64,000 nt of DNA from Chryseobacterium sp. POL2 (GTDB lineage: Bacteria > Bacteroidota > Bacteroidia > Flavobacteriales > Weeksellaceae). The stretch spans positions 1,240,001 through 1,304,000 of the forward strand of contig NZ_CP049298.1 in the NCBI RefSeq assembly GCF_011058315.1, written 5' to 3'. Position numbers and translations under genes: made by a program. Below the pieces are notes generated by a model that did not search any database, was not told the origin of the DNA, and saw only the letters and a list, made by a program, of their open reading frames with translations. The number at the start of each line of letters is the position of its first letter. Positions within the stretch are counted from its first letter, which is position 1. Shown here piece by piece: positions 31,063 to 38,358 of the stretch.

Positions 31063-31084
31063 TTATCTGCATTTTAAAAATTAA

Positions 31085-31112
31085 AGCATCTCAATATAGA
31101 GGTGTTTTTTTT
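31085..31112 (+). terminator. Terminator of murB
   Basis: An 8-bp stem with two G-T pairs (AGCATCTC / GAGGTGTT) around AATATA runs into eight T residues. Confidence 0.75.
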
Positions 31113-31126
31113 GTGACAATTATCAA

Positions 31127-31182
31127 TTATTTAAATTAATTCTAAATAAACTTTCATATTTTCTAACAACTTCTTACTTTTG
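31127..31182 (+). promoter_or_regulatory. Candidate promoter and inverted repeat before the receptor cassette
   Basis: TACTTTTG at 31175-31182 fits the -7 box. Upstream, TTATTTA (31127-31133) and TAAATAA (31143-31149) form a 7-bp inverted repeat with a 9-bp spacer that could be a metal-regulator site such as Fur. The arms are all A/T, so chance is a real possibility. Confidence 0.35.
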
Positions 31183-31211
31183 TGTTTTATTTATAATCAT
31201 TAAAAATAAGC

Positions 31212-33950
31212 GTGACACGATTTTTAAGTTTCCTATTTTTGGTTGGGCTTTCAGCTTTATCATTAGCTCAAAAAATTGAGTTAAACATTTCTGTACACAA
31301 CGAAAAGAACCAAGCTGTACCCAATGCTAATCTCAAAATAAGTAATCAAAAGCCATTAAAAACCGATGCAAAAGGTGAAGCCAAAATCTTCCTCGAAAAA
31401 AATAAAAACTACAGCATCGTTGTGAGCCATAATGCTTATCAGGATCGTGATTTAAAAATTACACCTACTCAAAATCAACATCTTGTCATCAAACTTCTTA
31501 GCGAAAATACTATTCAGGAAGTGGTTGTAACTGCCAAAGAAGCGAAAGGTCTTACGAGCAAATCTGTGATAACAACCAAAGCGATGGAACATCTACAGCC
31601 ATCGAGTTTTGCTGATATCATGGAGCTTGTACCTGGAGGATTAGCAAAAACGCCAACTTTAACCTCATCCAATCGGGTTTTATTACGAGAAAGCGATTCG
31701 GCACCAAGCAGTTATAACACGAGCGCGTTGGGAACGCAATTTATTATTGATAATAATATTTGGAACTCGAATGCGGATATGCAATTGTCACTTAACGACA
31801 GTCAGTTTCTTAGTGGTCCACAACAAAAAGCCGCTGCAGGAATTGGTGTGGACATGCGGACATTATCCACCAATGATATCGAAAGAGTGGAAATCATCCG
31901 TGGTATTCCGTCAGCATCTTATGGCGATCTGACATCTGGCGTCATAAAAATTGATAGAAAAATAGGGAAAACACCACTGCAAGCGCGTTTTAAAGCGGAT
32001 GGTTTTAGCAAACAATACTATATAAGCAAAGGTTTTGCACTAAAACAAAATTGGCAAATGACATCGAGCTTGGACTTTCTGGATGCCAAAGTTGATCCAA
32101 CCAATCAGTTTGAAAATTACCAACGTGTAACAGCTTCGCTACGTTCTCGCCTGAAAACAAAGCTTTGGAACAAACATCTGGAATGGCGTTCTACACTTGA
32201 CTTCTCCAACAATATTGACAAGGAAAAGAATGATCCTGACACAGGTTATGCACCAATAGATGCTTACAAAAATTCGAATAGCAGACTAAGTTTGACCAAT
32301 AATTTCGTTTATATTTTAGGCAAAGAAAATCTCTTTAACAAGCTAACGCTTAATACATCTATTCGTCAAGGTTTTGATAAAATAGAACAGACAAAATTGG
32401 TTCAACAGTCTGGACCACGTTCGATATCTTTAGCAACCACTCAAGGTGAAAATGTCGGTATTTTTCCACAGATCAAATACATTTCAGAATTTTATACCGA
32501 TGGCAAACCTATGGATGTTTCGACTTTGTTACAACTAAATGGTGTTAAAAAATCGGGGCTTCTACTCCATCAATACGAAGTTGGTGTTGACTGGAGATTT
32601 TCTAAAAACTTTGGAAAAGGACAACAATACGATCTTCTTACGCCGCCTACGGCTACAATGAATGTGCGACCACGCGCCTACGATGACATCCCAGCTTGGC
32701 AAGTTATGGCAGTTTTCATTGGTGACCAAATGTCTTATCAAATCGATGAACACAAGCTTAATCTTTATGCTGGTTTAAGAACATCTAACCTACTTGGTGT
32801 GGACAAAAGTTTTAGTATTAGCAAACAATTCTTTTTTGAACCACGACTTAATTTCCAATATGGACTTCCAAAAATATATATCGGTAATCATGCTTTGCGA
32901 GCGGATTTCACTTTAGGTTACGGGCAATTTTACAAACAGCCAACTTTGTTGATGTTGTACCCGAACACCAAATATATGGACTACACGCAGCTTAATTATT
33001 ATCACAATGATGAGCGTTACCGTTATGTCAACTTTATGACTTATGTACAATCTTTGGAGAACAAAAATTTAACCGCCGCAAAAAATACCAAATACGAAGC
33101 GCGTCTTGATCTTAATTATCGAAATCATGAATTTTTCGTAACCTATTTTCAAGAAGAAATGACCAACGGATTCCGAAGCACTTTGCAAACCGTAGCGCAA
33201 TCTTATAAAAAATACGATCCAGCTTATGTTGATATTAACGACTGGAATAATGGCCCGAACTTAGATAATATTCCGTATCAAATGATGACAGAATTCGGGA
33301 GCTATAGCATCACTGAGAACGGCAGTGCCACGATAAAAAGGGGTATCGAATTCGGTTACACATCGCCAAGATTCGAGGCTATCAATACGAGATTTACTTT
33401 AACAGGCGCCTATTTTAATACGCAATATCGCAATACAATTCCAGTTCACGAAAAACCAAATTCATCTATTGGCGGGTCCAACTTCCCGTATTATGGCATT
33501 TACAAAAATGATGATGGTTATATCAACTCTAACCTCAACTATAATTTTTTTGTTGACACCTATTTACCCAATTTGGATTTAACACTTTCGGCGTCATTTC
33601 AAGGGACGCTATTTGATCATAGAAAACGTGACCATCGTATGGCAGAACCTATTTCGTATTACGGTGTGGACGGCATTATTCACAACTTTACCGATGCTGA
33701 CAGAACGGACATTTACAAACAATGGCTTGTGCGTGATGTTTCTAAAACCGATAATCTCGAAACCCGATATACTTATACTTTGAACGCCAATTTTAAAGTC
33801 ACAAAAAAAATTTACAAAGCTTTAAGAACCTCAATGTTTGTGAATAAACTGTTTGGTTATGCCCATCCTTATTATATGAATGGCATTAAAATCGAACGAA
33901 AAAACCTGTCCACACCTTATTTTGGAATGGAACTTAATTATAATTTCTAA
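31212..33950 (+). CDS. TonB-dependent outer-membrane receptor
   Basis: 912 residues from a GTG start at 31212, chosen because it opens a signal peptide (RFLSFLFLVGLSALSLAQ). A carboxypeptidase-regulatory-like beta domain spans about 27-95, then a plug (IQEVVVTAKEAKGLTSKSVITT, IERVEIIRGIPSASYGDLTSGVIKI), then a 22-strand type barrel ending in aromatic FGMELNYNF. It should import a ligand across the outer membrane using TonB energy. It is the first gene of a tight run with DUF4876, DUF6850 and a diheme peroxidase; this linkage points to a metal, heme or redox-sensitive substrate. No SusD partner is present, which argues against a plain polysaccharide locus. Confidence 0.92.
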   Translation: MTRFLSFLFLVGLSALSLAQKIELNISVHNEKNQAVPNANLKISNQKPLKTDAKGEAKIFLEKNKNYSIVVSHNAYQDRDLKITPTQNQHLVIKLLSENTIQEVVVTAKEAKGLTSKSVITTKAMEHLQPSSFADIMELVPGGLAKTPTLTSSNRVLLRESDSAPSSYNTSALGTQFIIDNNIWNSNADMQLSLNDSQFLSGPQQKAAAGIGVDMRTLSTNDIERVEIIRGIPSASYGDLTSGVIKIDRKIGKTPLQARFKADGFSKQYYISKGFALKQNWQMTSSLDFLDAKVDPTNQFENYQRVTASLRSRLKTKLWNKHLEWRSTLDFSNNIDKEKNDPDTGYAPIDAYKNSNSRLSLTNNFVYILGKENLFNKLTLNTSIRQGFDKIEQTKLVQQSGPRSISLATTQGENVGIFPQIKYISEFYTDGKPMDVSTLLQLNGVKKSGLLLHQYEVGVDWRFSKNFGKGQQYDLLTPPTATMNVRPRAYDDIPAWQVMAVFIGDQMSYQIDEHKLNLYAGLRTSNLLGVDKSFSISKQFFFEPRLNFQYGLPKIYIGNHALRADFTLGYGQFYKQPTLLMLYPNTKYMDYTQLNYYHNDERYRYVNFMTYVQSLENKNLTAAKNTKYEARLDLNYRNHEFFVTYFQEEMTNGFRSTLQTVAQSYKKYDPAYVDINDWNNGPNLDNIPYQMMTEFGSYSITENGSATIKRGIEFGYTSPRFEAINTRFTLTGAYFNTQYRNTIPVHEKPNSSIGGSNFPYYGIYKNDDGYINSNLNYNFFVDTYLPNLDLTLSASFQGTLFDHRKRDHRMAEPISYYGVDGIIHNFTDADRTDIYKQWLVRDVSKTDNLETRYTYTLNANFKVTKKIYKALRTSMFVNKLFGYAHPYYMNGIKIERKNLSTPYFGMELNYNF

Positions 33951-33990
33951 ATAACAATTCTAAATAACAATATCTCTAAAAATTAACGCT

Positions 33991-35223
33991 ATGAAGAAGA
34001 ACTTTTTACTTCTCAGTCTATTAGGACTAACATTAACAACCAGTATTATCTCTTGCTCCAAAGACGATGATTTCGGGTTTGAACAAAGTCAGAAAAGTAA
34101 TGTCAGCATGACTTTTACAGGTGAAAATATCACCAATTACAAAACTTTGGAAATCGAAATTCTTGAAACCAATACAGGAAGTTTTATTAAAAAATCTGTT
34201 GAAAATAACAACAATCTTAGTCTTTCTTTAGCATATGGCTCTTACAAAATAACAGTTAATGGAACTATTATTGCTAACACAGGAGAAACTTTGACCATTG
34301 CTGGTTCTGCAAATTTGGATGTTAACACCTCAAATTCTAACATCAATATCCCATTATTTTTCAAACAATTCAGTCAAGATTTTATCATTGAAGAAGTGTT
34401 CTATACAGGTGTGAAAACGCCAGAAGGAAAAAACTACAACTCCAGTCGTTATTTTAAATTGGTGAATAACACAGACAAAATTTTGTATGCTGACGGATTA
34501 ATTATTGGACAATCCGAATTTCTGACAAGCGTCAACAACAATGTTAGCCCACACAATCCGAACGATTATTTCGCGGTGAAAGGCATGATGCTTCTCCCTG
34601 GTAATGGCACGCAATATCCGGTGGAACCGGGCGATTTTATCGTTGTAGCAGATAATGCGATTAATCACAATGCGCAAACCAGTACCGCTTTCAACCTTGA
34701 AAAAGCAGATTTTGAGTTCCCATCCATCAAAAACACAACATTGGCACAAGTTGATAACCCATCGGTTCCTAACGTAAAAGTAGTTTACACATCAATGGCT
34801 TTTGATGATATGATCTATTTGCACAGCAGTGGCGTGGAAGCTTATGTTATTGCAAGATTCCCTGCTGGAGAAACGGATGCGAGTTTTCTTCAAAATTATA
34901 AATACAGCTACTCTTACACCAATGCTGCGGGAACAACCACCAACAAAAGTGCTTATAAAATTCCAAACACTTGGATTCTAGATGGTTTTAACAACAGTAC
35001 TTCTGACAAGTTTTTACACATCTTAACGTCAACGTCAATCGACTCGGGATGGACAGGCGTTGGCGAATTTTGGAACGATCCCAACCGCTTGGGAAAATCT
35101 GTTCGTCGTAAAACTTTGGGCAAAACCAATACAGGAAAAAACATCTATAAAGACACGAATAACTCAGCAGAAGATTTCATCAGAAATGCTGAACCCAGTT
35201 TGAAAAACGGAATCGTTCATTAA
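33991..35223 (+). CDS. DUF4876 lipoprotein
   Basis: 410 residues. The signal ends with the lipobox SIISC, so Cys22 is lipidated and the protein sits in the outer membrane, outward or inward. The sequence shows an Ig-like first domain (SMTFTGENITNYKTLEIEILET) and a lamin-tail-like domain (IIEEVFYTGVKTPEGKNYNSSRYFKLVNN, VEPGDFIVVADNAINHN), matching DUF4876 from memory. It starts 40 bases after the receptor gene and 15 before the barrel gene. A role as substrate-binding partner of the receptor, analogous to SusD lipoproteins, is an inference from operon structure. Confidence 0.85.
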   Translation: MKKNFLLLSLLGLTLTTSIISCSKDDDFGFEQSQKSNVSMTFTGENITNYKTLEIEILETNTGSFIKKSVENNNNLSLSLAYGSYKITVNGTIIANTGETLTIAGSANLDVNTSNSNINIPLFFKQFSQDFIIEEVFYTGVKTPEGKNYNSSRYFKLVNNTDKILYADGLIIGQSEFLTSVNNNVSPHNPNDYFAVKGMMLLPGNGTQYPVEPGDFIVVADNAINHNAQTSTAFNLEKADFEFPSIKNTTLAQVDNPSVPNVKVVYTSMAFDDMIYLHSSGVEAYVIARFPAGETDASFLQNYKYSYSYTNAAGTTTNKSAYKIPNTWILDGFNNSTSDKFLHILTSTSIDSGWTGVGEFWNDPNRLGKSVRRKTLGKTNTGKNIYKDTNNSAEDFIRNAEPSLKNGIVH

Positions 35224-35238
35224 TATCTTTTTAAAAAA

Positions 35239-36756
35239 ATGAAGTTGCAAAACACCTTATTTAGCTTTTTTATTTTGACTTTCGGATTAACAAATCTGAA
35301 GGCTCAGGACAGCATTCGATTATTTCCAAAAATAGAGCAACAATATAGTGTTGAGCGACAACTTAAAAATAATTTTTACTATAATCCGGCAAGCATGTCG
35401 GGTTATAGTAATTTTTCTTTTACCGATTTCAGCATCGGTTACGAAAACGAAAAACGAAATATCTATCGCCAACAGGAAGGTTCTGGACAAAAAGGCCTTA
35501 GTCTAAAAGTGACTTCTTACAAAAAACAAAATGACCACCGCAGCATTTGGGGAAGTGCGCGCTATCAAAATCTAAATATTTCTTCTGTAAAATGGAACGA
35601 AAATCTAGATTTTGACAGAATTGCCCCTTACAGCATTGCCGACTCTGCATGCGGCGATACCAAGCTGGAACGTTATCAGTTTTCTGGAGGAATTTCACAA
35701 AAAATAAACCGCTGGACTTTCGGACTCGAGGCAAGTTATTTGGCACAACTCGGTTCTCGCAATCGCGATCCTAGACAAAAAAGTACAACCTCTGACCTTA
35801 ATGTTAACCTGGGTGTCAACTACCGATTTTATAACGATTTTGAAATTGGAATTTTTGGAAACCTCAACAAATACACCCAAAATACATCTATCAAATTCGT
35901 AAGCGATCTTGGTCAAGCTTTGATGTATCAAATGACGGGATTTGGATTTTCAAATTATTTCTTTAATGGCGGAAGCCCTGCGGCTATCTATGAAGAATTC
36001 GGTTATAAAGTAGGCGGTCAAATTTTTAAAAATTCAAAAAATCCATTTTACATAACGGGTTACTTGTCGCAATCTAAAAATCAAAAAAGCGTGAATCCAA
36101 CCAACCGCTATTTTGACATTTCAGACTTAGATAACGAGAATTACCAAATAGAGGCGGCAAAGTTTTTCAGTATCCATCAACATCGCGTTGGATTGGTGGC
36201 CAATTATCAAGCTTTTATAAGAACTGGCTCCGAATATGGCTACACCAACAATACCGAAATTATAGAACAGATCTACAAAAGAAAATCTTACAAGAAAGAA
36301 GATTATTTATCCACTATCAAAGTTTTATATCAATATTCTGCTGATAAATTTGTTTTGGGCGCAACACCTAGTTTGCTTTATCGACAGACCACCGAACAAC
36401 GCATGTATCCCTTCAGTGGGCAAAAATTTGAAAGCTATACTTTAGGCATTGATGCGTTTTATATACAAGAAATAGCAGACAATCAGCTTATCAGTCTATC
36501 AGGAAATTTTTCGACAAAAAAAATTATAAAATCCACCAATGCGCTATCAACCGACCTTCGCGAAAGTATCATGGATTGGTTAATGTCGGATTACAATTAT
36601 TTAGCAAGTGATGCGATTAGTTTAGGCGCGAGTTTGCGTTACGATCTTAAGTTCCAAAAACTTCCTGCTTTCTATATCCAAGCCGGTTGGCAACAATTTC
36701 AGCTACAGAAAAAAAATAATAACTTTACACAATTAATTTTAGGAATTACATTTTAA
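35239..36756 (+). CDS. DUF6850 outer-membrane beta-barrel protein
   Basis: 505 residues with a signal peptide (FSFFILTFGLTNLKAQ) and regularly alternating amphipathic strands rich in Tyr, Asn and Lys to the C-terminal aromatic end (FTQLILGITF), as expected for a barrel of about 16-20 strands. It matches DUF6850 by its company and by NNFYYNPASMSGYSNFSFTDF at the N-terminus. Two parallel membrane proteins in one unit suggest either a second pore or a surface assembly. The gene is separated by 15 bases from DUF4876 and by 3 from the peroxidase gene, which means tight co-expression. Confidence 0.82.
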   Translation: MKLQNTLFSFFILTFGLTNLKAQDSIRLFPKIEQQYSVERQLKNNFYYNPASMSGYSNFSFTDFSIGYENEKRNIYRQQEGSGQKGLSLKVTSYKKQNDHRSIWGSARYQNLNISSVKWNENLDFDRIAPYSIADSACGDTKLERYQFSGGISQKINRWTFGLEASYLAQLGSRNRDPRQKSTTSDLNVNLGVNYRFYNDFEIGIFGNLNKYTQNTSIKFVSDLGQALMYQMTGFGFSNYFFNGGSPAAIYEEFGYKVGGQIFKNSKNPFYITGYLSQSKNQKSVNPTNRYFDISDLDNENYQIEAAKFFSIHQHRVGLVANYQAFIRTGSEYGYTNNTEIIEQIYKRKSYKKEDYLSTIKVLYQYSADKFVLGATPSLLYRQTTEQRMYPFSGQKFESYTLGIDAFYIQEIADNQLISLSGNFSTKKIIKSTNALSTDLRESIMDWLMSDYNYLASDAISLGASLRYDLKFQKLPAFYIQAGWQQFQLQKKNNNFTQLILGITF

Positions 36757-36759
36757 ATC

Positions 36760-37908
36760 ATGAAGAAAATAGTTTTATTGGGCGTTGCTGCGGTTATCAT
36801 GTTTTTACTAAGTTTTGCACCAAAAGTTAACCGAGAACTTTTGGACATGCAAGATCCAACATTTCAGGACATCGTCAACAGCTACAAAAAAGCAATTTCG
36901 AAATGGCCAAAACCAAACATTGAAGAAGGCGTCAACTGGAAAGAGTTTTCTTCTATAAAACGAGATTCTAACTATTTTAAAGAACAAGAAAAACCTATGG
37001 TCATATTGGGAAAAATGTTATTCTTTGATCCTAAACTTTCTAGTAGCAACCAAATCTCCTGCAGCACTTGTCACGATCCAGAAATGGGCTGGACAGACCG
37101 CCGTCGCGTGTCTTTGGGTAACGATCATTTGCACGGCACACGTAATACGATTAGCATTCTCAATATCGCACAACGCCAATCTTTCTTTTGGGATGGACGC
37201 TCATTAACATTGGAAGACCAGGCGATTTCTCCAATTGCGGCACATCATGAGATGAATATGGAACCGCCACTTTTAAGTGAAAAACTTGAAAAAATTAAAG
37301 GCTATAAAAAATTGTTCAAAGACGCTTACGGTGATGACAAAATCAATTTTGATCGTATAACAAAAGCTTTAGCAGAATTTCAGAAAACTGTAAAAAGCCA
37401 ACCGAGTCGTTTTGATCAATTTCTTGATGGCAAATACGATGCGTTAACGGATCAAGAAATTTATGGCATGCACATCTTCCGTACCAAAGCGGCTTGTATG
37501 AACTGTCATAATGGACAATATCTTAGCGATGAAAAATTTCATAACATTGGGCTGACATATTACAAAAGACAATACGAGGATCTTGGGCTGTATAACACAA
37601 CCAAAAAGCCAGAAGATGTTGGAAAATTCCGTACGCCGCAACTTCGCGATTTACTATTGACAAGACCTTGGATGCACAATGGTCTTTTTGACGATCTGGA
37701 AGGTGTTGTTAACATGTACAACAGCGGCATGCACATGATAGACCCTTCTGCAGAACAAAAGAAAAATGACCTGATGTATCCTGTTACCGATCCATTATTA
37801 AAAAAATTAGATTTAACAAAAGACGAAACCAAAGCTTTGGTTCTGTTTTTAGAATCGATGTCGGGAACCAAATTTAAAATGAGACGTCCAGATTTCCCAA
37901 CAGAATAA
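36760..37908 (+). CDS. Diheme cytochrome-c peroxidase of the MauG/CCP family
   Basis: 382 residues with a Sec signal or anchor (IVLLGVAAVIMFLLSFA). Two c-type heme motifs are present: C101-S-T-C104-H105 (ISCSTCHDPEMGWTD) and C246-M-N-C249-H250 (AACMNCHNGQ). Family blocks include GKMLFFDPKLSSSNQ, FFWDGRSLTLEDQA and TRPWMHNGLFDDLEGVVNMYNSG. Members either reduce hydrogen peroxide or, like MauG, modify a protein by high-valent heme chemistry. As last gene of the receptor operon it may detoxify peroxide at the site of uptake or oxidise the substrate or a partner protein. It ends three bases from the convergent vanZ-like gene. Confidence 0.93.
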   Translation: MKKIVLLGVAAVIMFLLSFAPKVNRELLDMQDPTFQDIVNSYKKAISKWPKPNIEEGVNWKEFSSIKRDSNYFKEQEKPMVILGKMLFFDPKLSSSNQISCSTCHDPEMGWTDRRRVSLGNDHLHGTRNTISILNIAQRQSFFWDGRSLTLEDQAISPIAAHHEMNMEPPLLSEKLEKIKGYKKLFKDAYGDDKINFDRITKALAEFQKTVKSQPSRFDQFLDGKYDALTDQEIYGMHIFRTKAACMNCHNGQYLSDEKFHNIGLTYYKRQYEDLGLYNTTKKPEDVGKFRTPQLRDLLLTRPWMHNGLFDDLEGVVNMYNSGMHMIDPSAEQKKNDLMYPVTDPLLKKLDLTKDETKALVLFLESMSGTKFKMRRPDFPTE

Positions 37909-37911
37909 TTT

Positions 37912-38358
37912 CTATTTTAAAATCTTATAATTCTTGGTTGTTGAAATGTATTTTTCGACAAACGCCATCAGATAAAAACCTAAACTTAGTCCTATTGAAT
38001 TAAAAATAATATCATCGATATCAAAAACACCAAGTCTTGTGAAATATTGCAAGGCTTCGAGTATTATTAAAACGAAAAGAAAACTTAGTATCAGTTTTTT
38101 AAAATCATAAAATTTAGGAAATATCCATGCTAAAAATCCAAAAGGAATAAACATCACCAAATTTCCTATGATATTGATAAGAATATCCTTTATAAACAAC
38201 GTATTTTTTACAAACTGAATGCTTGATGCTAAAGGTTGTAGTCTTACAATATTAATAGACATCGCCTCCCTGCCAAAGCCAAAAAACATAAAATACAGCA
38301 ATACAATTGCGTACGGAAAAATGCAAATTCGGAATATGAGTTTTAAAATTTTAAGCAT
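37912..38358 (-). CDS. VanZ-family membrane protein
   Basis: 148 residues with four predicted transmembrane helices and the typical VanZ spacing: hydrophobic N-terminus, INIIGNLVMFIPFGFLAWI, LSFLFVLIILEALQYFTRLGVFDIDDIIFNSIGLSLGFY. The FDIDDIIFN block is a hallmark of the family. VanZ proteins affect tolerance to teicoplanin and similar lipoglycopeptides in enterococci, but most members are of unknown role. Its ATG overlaps the stop of the DUF486 gene by one base, so the pair is co-translated. Confidence 0.88.
   Translation of the reverse strand: MLKILKLIFRICIFPYAIVLLYFMFFGFGREAMSINIVRLQPLASSIQFVKNTLFIKDILINIIGNLVMFIPFGFLAWIFPKFYDFKKLILSFLFVLIILEALQYFTRLGVFDIDDIIFNSIGLSLGFYLMAFVEKYISTTKNYKILK

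Follow-up and report, generated by a model that had tools for sequence, protein, structure and literature searches.

A Receptor, DUF4876, and DUF6850 Module of Bacteroidota That Carries a Predicted MauG-Type Diheme Enzyme in Part of the Phylum

The locus described here raises the question of whether a gene for a diheme enzyme belongs with the outer-membrane genes that precede it and what such an enzyme would act on. The window, a stretch of 64,000 nucleotides from Chryseobacterium sp. POL2 (NZ_CP049298.1, positions 1,240,001 to 1,304,000), contains four consecutive genes that encode a TonB-dependent receptor, a DUF4876 lipoprotein, a DUF6850 protein, and an enzyme of the CCP_MauG family. An earlier note, made from the sequence alone, had described them as one four-gene system. 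Judged by its conservation, the four-gene arrangement is more than chance; the receptor, DUF4876, and DUF6850 are one module, whereas the heme enzyme is an optional add-on, yet one that is specific to this cassette type. The three-protein module is probably an iron-controlled outer-membrane uptake unit conserved in Bacteroidota.

The module was delimited in a sample of 296 Bacteroidota genomes, in which 36 stretches around DUF4876 matches were fetched from 28 genomes other than that of the window; genes at these loci were called with profiles that started from the window proteins and were built up on the open reading frames (ORFs) of the loci themselves. Profile searches found DUF4876 in 29 of the 296 genomes and DUF6850 above the cut-off in 29 (37 at E ≤ 0.001), and the two lists overlap in 27 genomes (hypergeometric probability, 1e-33). 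In both genomes that have DUF4876 and no Pfam match to DUF6850 (G009 and G035), the profile nevertheless found DUF6850 (32 and 44 bits, at L057 and L063). Conversely, G076 and G193 have DUF6850 above the cut-off and no DUF4876; in each, the match is partial (31 and 29 bits) and lies within a longer frame. Receptor, DUF4876, and DUF6850 genes occur together in 36/36 loci. DUF4876 directly adjoins DUF6850 in 34 of these, and the two genes are ∼2.9 kb apart in the others (L053 and L059); at one locus (L041), a contig end cuts DUF6850. Counted across Bacteroidota, the families are thus mostly found together, and the view of a system passes for the three core genes. The fourth gene proved less constant: the heme enzyme lies behind DUF6850 in just 6/36 loci, with one ORF intervening in L046, and is carried by 7 of the 29 genomes, which implies a core that functions independently of the enzyme.

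In the other loci, the fourth slot is taken by PSII_BNR propellers with a type IX secretion tail (Por_Secre_tail; Pfam matches on L052 and L060), by a HEAT-repeat protein (L036), or by unrelated genes, and ABC and PepSY-like genes, named by eye, recur near DUF4876 loci. The propeller family turns up in 14 of the loci that have no enzyme (most of L052 to L066), often directly 3' of DUF6850, and M16-like peptidase genes, recognized by eye, recur in 10 enzyme-free loci of the same range. A nameless family is found near the cassette in eight enzyme-free loci (L037 to L040, L042, L043, L045, and L050); one small neighboring piece, from L037, gave no Pfam match.

The attachment of the enzyme to this cassette emerges from a scan of named genomes with seven cassette enzymes as queries, in which the best 79 of 532 relatives, that is, the nearest relatives only, were analyzed. 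DUF4876 lies within 5 kb of the enzyme gene in 74 of these 79 loci, transcribed in the same direction in 71 and with a divergent enzyme in three (L121, L130, and L140); DUF6850 is present in 72 loci and a receptor match in 75. The misses for DUF6850 include L140 and L143, which carry ORFs of 517 and 508 amino acids (aa) in the DUF6850 slot that have no profile match. Five loci have no DUF4876 within 5 kb; one of them (L102) lies at a contig end. Another (L103, Epilithonimonas hungarica) appears to be a cassette remnant with short receptor and enzyme frames, in which DUF4876 and DUF6850 were not found. Tandem double cassettes with one diheme enzyme each are seen in three Myroides loci (L092, L094, and L101), the first copy being cut by the locus end.

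The class of the enzyme, a type noted for exceptionally strong oxidations, can be read from its residues. It passes the cut-off of the CCP_MauG model (PF03150; E = 3.6e-53; 180.6 bits against 25.6). A Tyr (Tyr320) stands at the axial Met position in 84/84 cassette enzymes from 81 loci, aligning by profile with Met 297 of chain 3hq9 and Met 292 of 4aal. W144 and E164 are likewise found in 84/84, and W111, Q154, and P158 in 83/84, which gives the window enzyme an inter-heme Trp (W144), a distal Gln/Glu pair (Q154 and E164), and a family-specific W111. The aligned position 121, which we take to be that of the distal His ligand in canonical bacterial cytochrome c peroxidase, holds N in the window enzyme and H in 25/84 cassette enzymes. 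W111 had been a candidate for the inter-heme Trp and was dropped in favor of W144 in view of the spacing of W144 to the distal Gln (10 residues) and of the FWDGR sequence that the aligned peroxidases contain. A quick tree of 62 diheme proteins falls into a group with Met320 and G111 (7 rows), a group with Tyr320 and F111 that includes the MbnH-like protein of the window's own genome (19 rows), and the cassette clade with Tyr320 and W111 (36 rows; SH-aLRT, 99). Scores against the equivalog model of MauG (TIGR03791; 224.5 bits against 443.85) and that of MbnH (TIGR04039; 205.5 bits against 362.85) lie far below the cut-offs; MauG-type chemistry is therefore predicted from the residues, without membership in either family. 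A PHROGs search with the enzyme gave no match. The MauG/CCP label of the earlier note thus holds for its MauG-like side, through the Tyr ligand, and fails for a strict cytochrome c peroxidase.

These residues bear on the explanation that the enzyme would simply scavenge peroxide in the periplasm, its expression being coupled to iron uptake so as to keep Fenton chemistry in check, and would have no specific partner. The retained distal Gln and Glu would suit such a role, as would an enzyme mostly confined to oxygen-using lineages, as the named enzyme-bearing organisms, presumably mostly aerobes, suggest. The classical axial Met, however, is Tyr throughout, Met-type enzymes form a separate group in the phylum, and a scavenger has no need to adjoin one receptor type in 74/79 loci, including those with the enzyme gene inverted. 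We regard this explanation as improbable. In published work on BthA of Burkholderia, the Tyr-His ligand of BthA, like that of MauG, is tied to the bis-Fe(IV) state, and BthA turns over peroxide independently of its Tyr ligand (PMC6405878).

The cassette also has a candidate Fur-type operator, an element absent from the earlier note. The palindrome at 31127-31149 (Table 1) has a 9-5-9 form and resembles the Riemerella Fur box ATTTAGAATTATTCTAAAT, for which Fur binding was reported by gel shift (PMC5609570, PMC10986502). With a threshold of at least 14/18 matching positions, the box is present in 70/78 receptor upstream regions of enzyme-bearing cassettes, against 2/78 shuffled regions, 7/258 later cassette genes, and 11/695 other nearby genes. 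Near relatives inflate the count; cassettes of Flavobacterium, Myroides, Sphingobacterium, and Pedobacter carry the box too. A TAnnTTTG element, which we take to be the Bacteroidota promoter consensus, follows 20 to 80 nt beyond the box in 56 of the 70 cassettes, at 48 to 49 nt in 39 of them, and a second site (at least 13/18) occurs in 30 at variable spacing. The exact palindrome pattern has five sites in the window's genome, the cassette included: one lies 31 bp 5' of a feoA-feoB pair, two others, separated by 60 bp, precede a gene of no known function, and one precedes an aldehyde-dehydrogenase-like gene (all genes named by eye). A Fur-type box is thus present near a promoter-like element, from which we infer that Fur would bind at 31127-31149.

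Related loci respond to iron in published work. On iron depletion, PG1019-22 of Porphyromonas gingivalis rises 20.8- to 214.5-fold, BT_3631-33 of Bacteroides thetaiotaomicron 112- to 128-fold, and BT1933-39, which includes a DUF4876 gene, 3.5- to 7.4-fold (PMC10434189); a DUF4876 gene was also found to be hemin-responsive (PMC10470040). PG1019 is the top row in a table of genes changed in periodontitis and moves together with HmuY in a proteome comparison. Three of these loci (PG1019-PG1022, BT_3625-BT_3633, and BT_1938-39) resemble the window cassette in that one or more DUF4876 genes adjoin a TonB receptor, and the strong induction of PG1019-22 and BT_3631-33 suggests, by analogy, iron control of the window cassette. 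They differ in that the accessible part of the report lists no diheme enzyme at the Porphyromonas and Bacteroides loci, a difference that would also suit a peroxide scavenger; in addition, BT_3625-33 has extra ABC and PepSY genes and was labeled a putative fimbrillin locus by its authors (PMC10434189). In the literature searched, DUF6850 was not mentioned and DUF4876 appeared in three papers. No paper was found that ties a diheme enzyme to Fur, TonB-dependent uptake, and a lipoprotein operon in Flavobacterium, or that brings together diheme or MauG enzymes, TonB-dependent receptors, and iron acquisition in Bacteroidota, although three papers mention MauG along with TonB-dependent receptors and Bacteroidetes; most subscription journals lie outside the coverage of these searches.

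The two uncharacterized families of the module fit an outer-membrane location. The window DUF4876 protein matches PDB entry 4q1z (E = 1.9e-23), and among 15 members, matches at E ≤ 0.5 were obtained to Ig-like models (CarboxypepD_reg, 9/15) and to the lamin tail domain (6/15; best E, 4.5e-6). The lipoprotein export signal of Bacteroidota consists of the lipobox Cys followed by acidic residues, with K(D/E)2 as its strict form. The window protein carries a signal of this type (C-SKDDD); two or more acidic residues stand behind the Cys in 56/80 enzyme-bearing and 4/30 enzyme-free DUF4876 proteins, and the strict form is found in 7/80 and 2/30, respectively. The suggestion of the earlier note that DUF4876 is a surface binder is consistent with the lipobox, the acidic residues, and the Ig-like and lamin-tail-like domains as far as they go, with binding itself a candidate role. 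For DUF6850, a fold prediction from a 32-sequence alignment yielded a barrel of ∼18 long strands with N-terminal helices (predicted local distance difference test [pLDDT] score, 91.6); the alignment-free prediction was unusable (pLDDT, 28.7). Foldseek matched this model to siderophore receptors and other barrels, with TM scores of ≤0.43 among the 50 matches listed, and VIA-align matched it to general barrels (CymA; Z = 18.2; root mean square deviation, 5.4). Both sets of matches are generic, and the predicted fold therefore does not reveal function.

We lean, with moderate confidence, toward an outer-membrane uptake cassette for iron starvation, supplemented in some lineages by a MauG-type oxidase that would act on the imported ligand or its iron. 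Fur, together with iron, would repress the cassette from the palindrome 5' of the receptor gene; upon iron shortage, the TonB-dependent receptor, the surface lipoprotein DUF4876, and the second barrel, DUF6850, would be made. DUF4876 would help to capture the ligand at the surface, and the DUF6850 barrel would work together with the receptor and DUF4876. Some lineages, the named ones again presumably mostly aerobic, would add the periplasmic diheme enzyme, which peroxide would drive into a high-valent state shared by its two hemes and which, once the iron ligand has been imported, would oxidize that ligand or its iron.

Several observations weigh against this explanation. Four of the 79 nearest enzymes (L103, L113, L119, and L123) have no complete adjacent cassette, and all except L103 are without any of the core genes nearby. 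In a second sample, PF03150 was matched in 43/90 genomes, and the locus of the best match was taken for 30 of these, the window's own locus included; of the 29 others, four belong to the cassette clade yet have no cassette in the surrounding 16 kb (L181, L183, L185, and L191); the genome of L185 holds a DUF4876 cassette elsewhere (L044), and the enzymes of L181 and L183 come after a sigma factor/FecR/SusC/SusD/lipoprotein locus (Pfam assignments on the L206 copy only). The box is missing from 8/78 enzyme-bearing cassettes (four Chitinophaga, one Niabella, L046, L051, and L120, in which the receptor frame is split) and present in 1/29 enzyme-free cassettes, so the operator claim is confined to the enzyme-bearing group. 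Among the other exact sites in the window's genome, just one, that of feoA-feoB, precedes an obvious iron gene, and hits with up to two mismatches number 66 against 61 for the reversed control; weight is accordingly placed only on strong or conserved sites. PG1019 is also altered by polyphosphate, and PG1019 and PG1020 are altered in an oxidative stress/mutant study; the literature search found no iron-response data for any enzyme-bearing species. Finally, it is the enzyme class alone that suggests oxidation of the ligand.

The earlier note had also considered that the enzyme acts on a partner protein. In this explanation, it would oxidize a Trp or Tyr in one of its three partners (DUF4876, barrel, or receptor) while that partner is exported, generating a metal site or a crosslink, by analogy with the action of MauG on preMADH and of MbnH on MbnP. 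The MauG-type Tyr ligand and inter-heme Trp would suit such a role, the window's genome also pairs a lipoprotein with a diheme enzyme in its MbnP/MbnH module, and W328 of DUF4876 is present in 71/80 enzyme-bearing and 3/30 enzyme-free proteins. However, nine of the 80 have Y, V, E, Q, or A in place of W328, and its presence follows clade in the tree, where three enzyme-free relatives nested within the clade retain it; four independent pairs on starred branches give a sign test p of 0.5 to 1. This MbnP-like Trp, which had looked promising in a 15-row alignment as well (6/7 enzyme-bearing against 3/8 enzyme-free), was dropped as evidence because it is explained by clade, nine enzyme-bearing members have no such Trp, and nested enzyme-free cassettes keep such residues. 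Sixteen partner positions are conserved in ≥95% of enzyme-bearing and <60% of other cassettes; all five nested enzyme-free cassettes keep 12 of them, and at each of the other four a single one of the five differs. No partner residue was found to track the heme enzyme in these comparisons, and 30/36 phylum loci have no such enzyme. Partner modification thus finds no support and appears unlikely.

Two possibilities then remain: the enzyme would either oxidize the ligand or its iron or remove peroxide. We favor the first, given the Tyr ligand and the finding of such enzymes beside two receptor types. A broader proposal, which we advance only tentatively, is that the cassette represents a new class of TonB-linked oxidative import, in which a Fur-controlled receptor, lipoprotein, and barrel would deliver the ligand and the enzyme would free its iron by high-valent ligand oxidation in the periplasm, the clade also being attached to a FecR/SusC/SusD receptor type (L206 and L207). 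At these two loci, in two genomes of the window's order, sister diheme enzymes lie behind FecR, a SusC-type receptor, SusD, and an unassigned lipoprotein.

Among known systems, the enzyme resembles MauG in its PF03150 fold, the Tyr axial to the second heme, the inter-heme Trp, and the distal Gln and Glu 10 residues apart; it differs in having no mau genes around it, in its model score, and in W111. The methanobactin-type Mbn system includes a TonB receptor, and its receptor, lipoprotein (MbnP), and Tyr-type diheme enzyme (MbnH) resemble the window cassette, which could be a variant of MbnT/MbnP/MbnH for copper or another metal. The cassette differs, however, in its lipoprotein family (MbnP, PF20243, had no match in the window DUF4876 protein at E ≤ 1 and is not among the 25 families of the 15 members), in the tree group and MbnH score of its enzyme, and in the palindrome and published regulation, which indicate iron rather than copper; moreover, the genome has separate MbnP/MbnH modules. 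We consider a copper variant highly improbable. BthA is another Tyr-His diheme enzyme outside a mau operon, of unknown function according to the accessible part of the report, and differs in having Ser for the inter-heme Trp (PMC6405878). DUF4876 genes count among the strongly iron-regulated genes in Porphyromonas and Bacteroides, and the accessible parts of those reports give them no function; the links drawn here from DUF4876 to its constant partner, the DUF6850 barrel, to an operator of Fur type, and, in some lineages, to a MauG-type enzyme make the system testable. If the enzyme does act on the ligand, MauG-type chemistry would extend from the making of protein cofactors to iron acquisition.

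The layout of the locus is as the earlier note gave it: the ORF listing of the window has four ORFs on the plus strand with intergenic gaps of 40, 15, and 3 bases, and the last protein has two CxxCH motifs (Table 1). Pfam searches identified Plug (E = 8.6e-8) and CarboxypepD_reg-like domains in the receptor, the barrel model PF00593 not being listed at E ≤ 1, and DUF4876 (E = 9e-48) and DUF6850 (E = 1.6e-79) in the next two proteins. By eye, the receptor and DUF6850 genes encode signal peptides, and the DUF4876 protein has the lipobox SIISC-SKDDD; the heme enzyme has a hydrophobic N terminus without a lipobox or clear cleavage site. Of the flanks, the convergent gene is confirmed. The upstream terminator is seen only as a hairpin that ends 103 bases 5' of the receptor start codon, and the four such hairpins in the region are not above chance in number (shuffled mean, 5.8).

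Table 1. Coding and noncoding features of the cassette and its borders (window coordinates)
Feature	Position	Strand	Remarks
Terminator-like hairpin between upstream gene and cassette	31083-31108	+	Pattern scan
Fur-box-like palindrome TTATTTAAATTAATTCTAAATAA	31127-31149		17/18 half-site positions; resembles published Riemerella Fur box
TAnnTTTG element	31175-31182	+	48 nt past palindrome start
Second, weaker palindrome of the same kind	31187-31209		15/18; immediately 5' of start codon
TonB-dependent receptor	31212-33950	+	912 aa, GTG start; carboxypeptidase-regulatory-like domain and plug
DUF4876 lipoprotein	33991-35223	+	410 aa; related to PDB 4q1z; relatives with Ig-like and lamin-tail-like domains
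DUF6850 outer-membrane beta-barrel (predicted)	35239-36756	+	505 aa; ∼18 long strands and N-terminal helices (predicted)
MauG-type diheme enzyme (predicted)	36760-37908	+	382 aa; CxxCH at 101-105 and 246-250
Convergent gene, small membrane protein	37912-38358	-	Bounds the unit; 3 bases beyond last cassette stop

Elsewhere in the window's genome, a stretch of at least 13.7 kb is present twice at 99.9% identity (G000:C1, 433936-447644 and 521291-535000; L175 and L176), the second copy running to the end of the fetched sequence. The repeated stretch holds an MbnP gene, an MbnH-like diheme gene, an integrase-like gene recognized by eye, and a cGAMP synthase gene of a cyclic oligonucleotide-based antiphage signaling system (CBASS).

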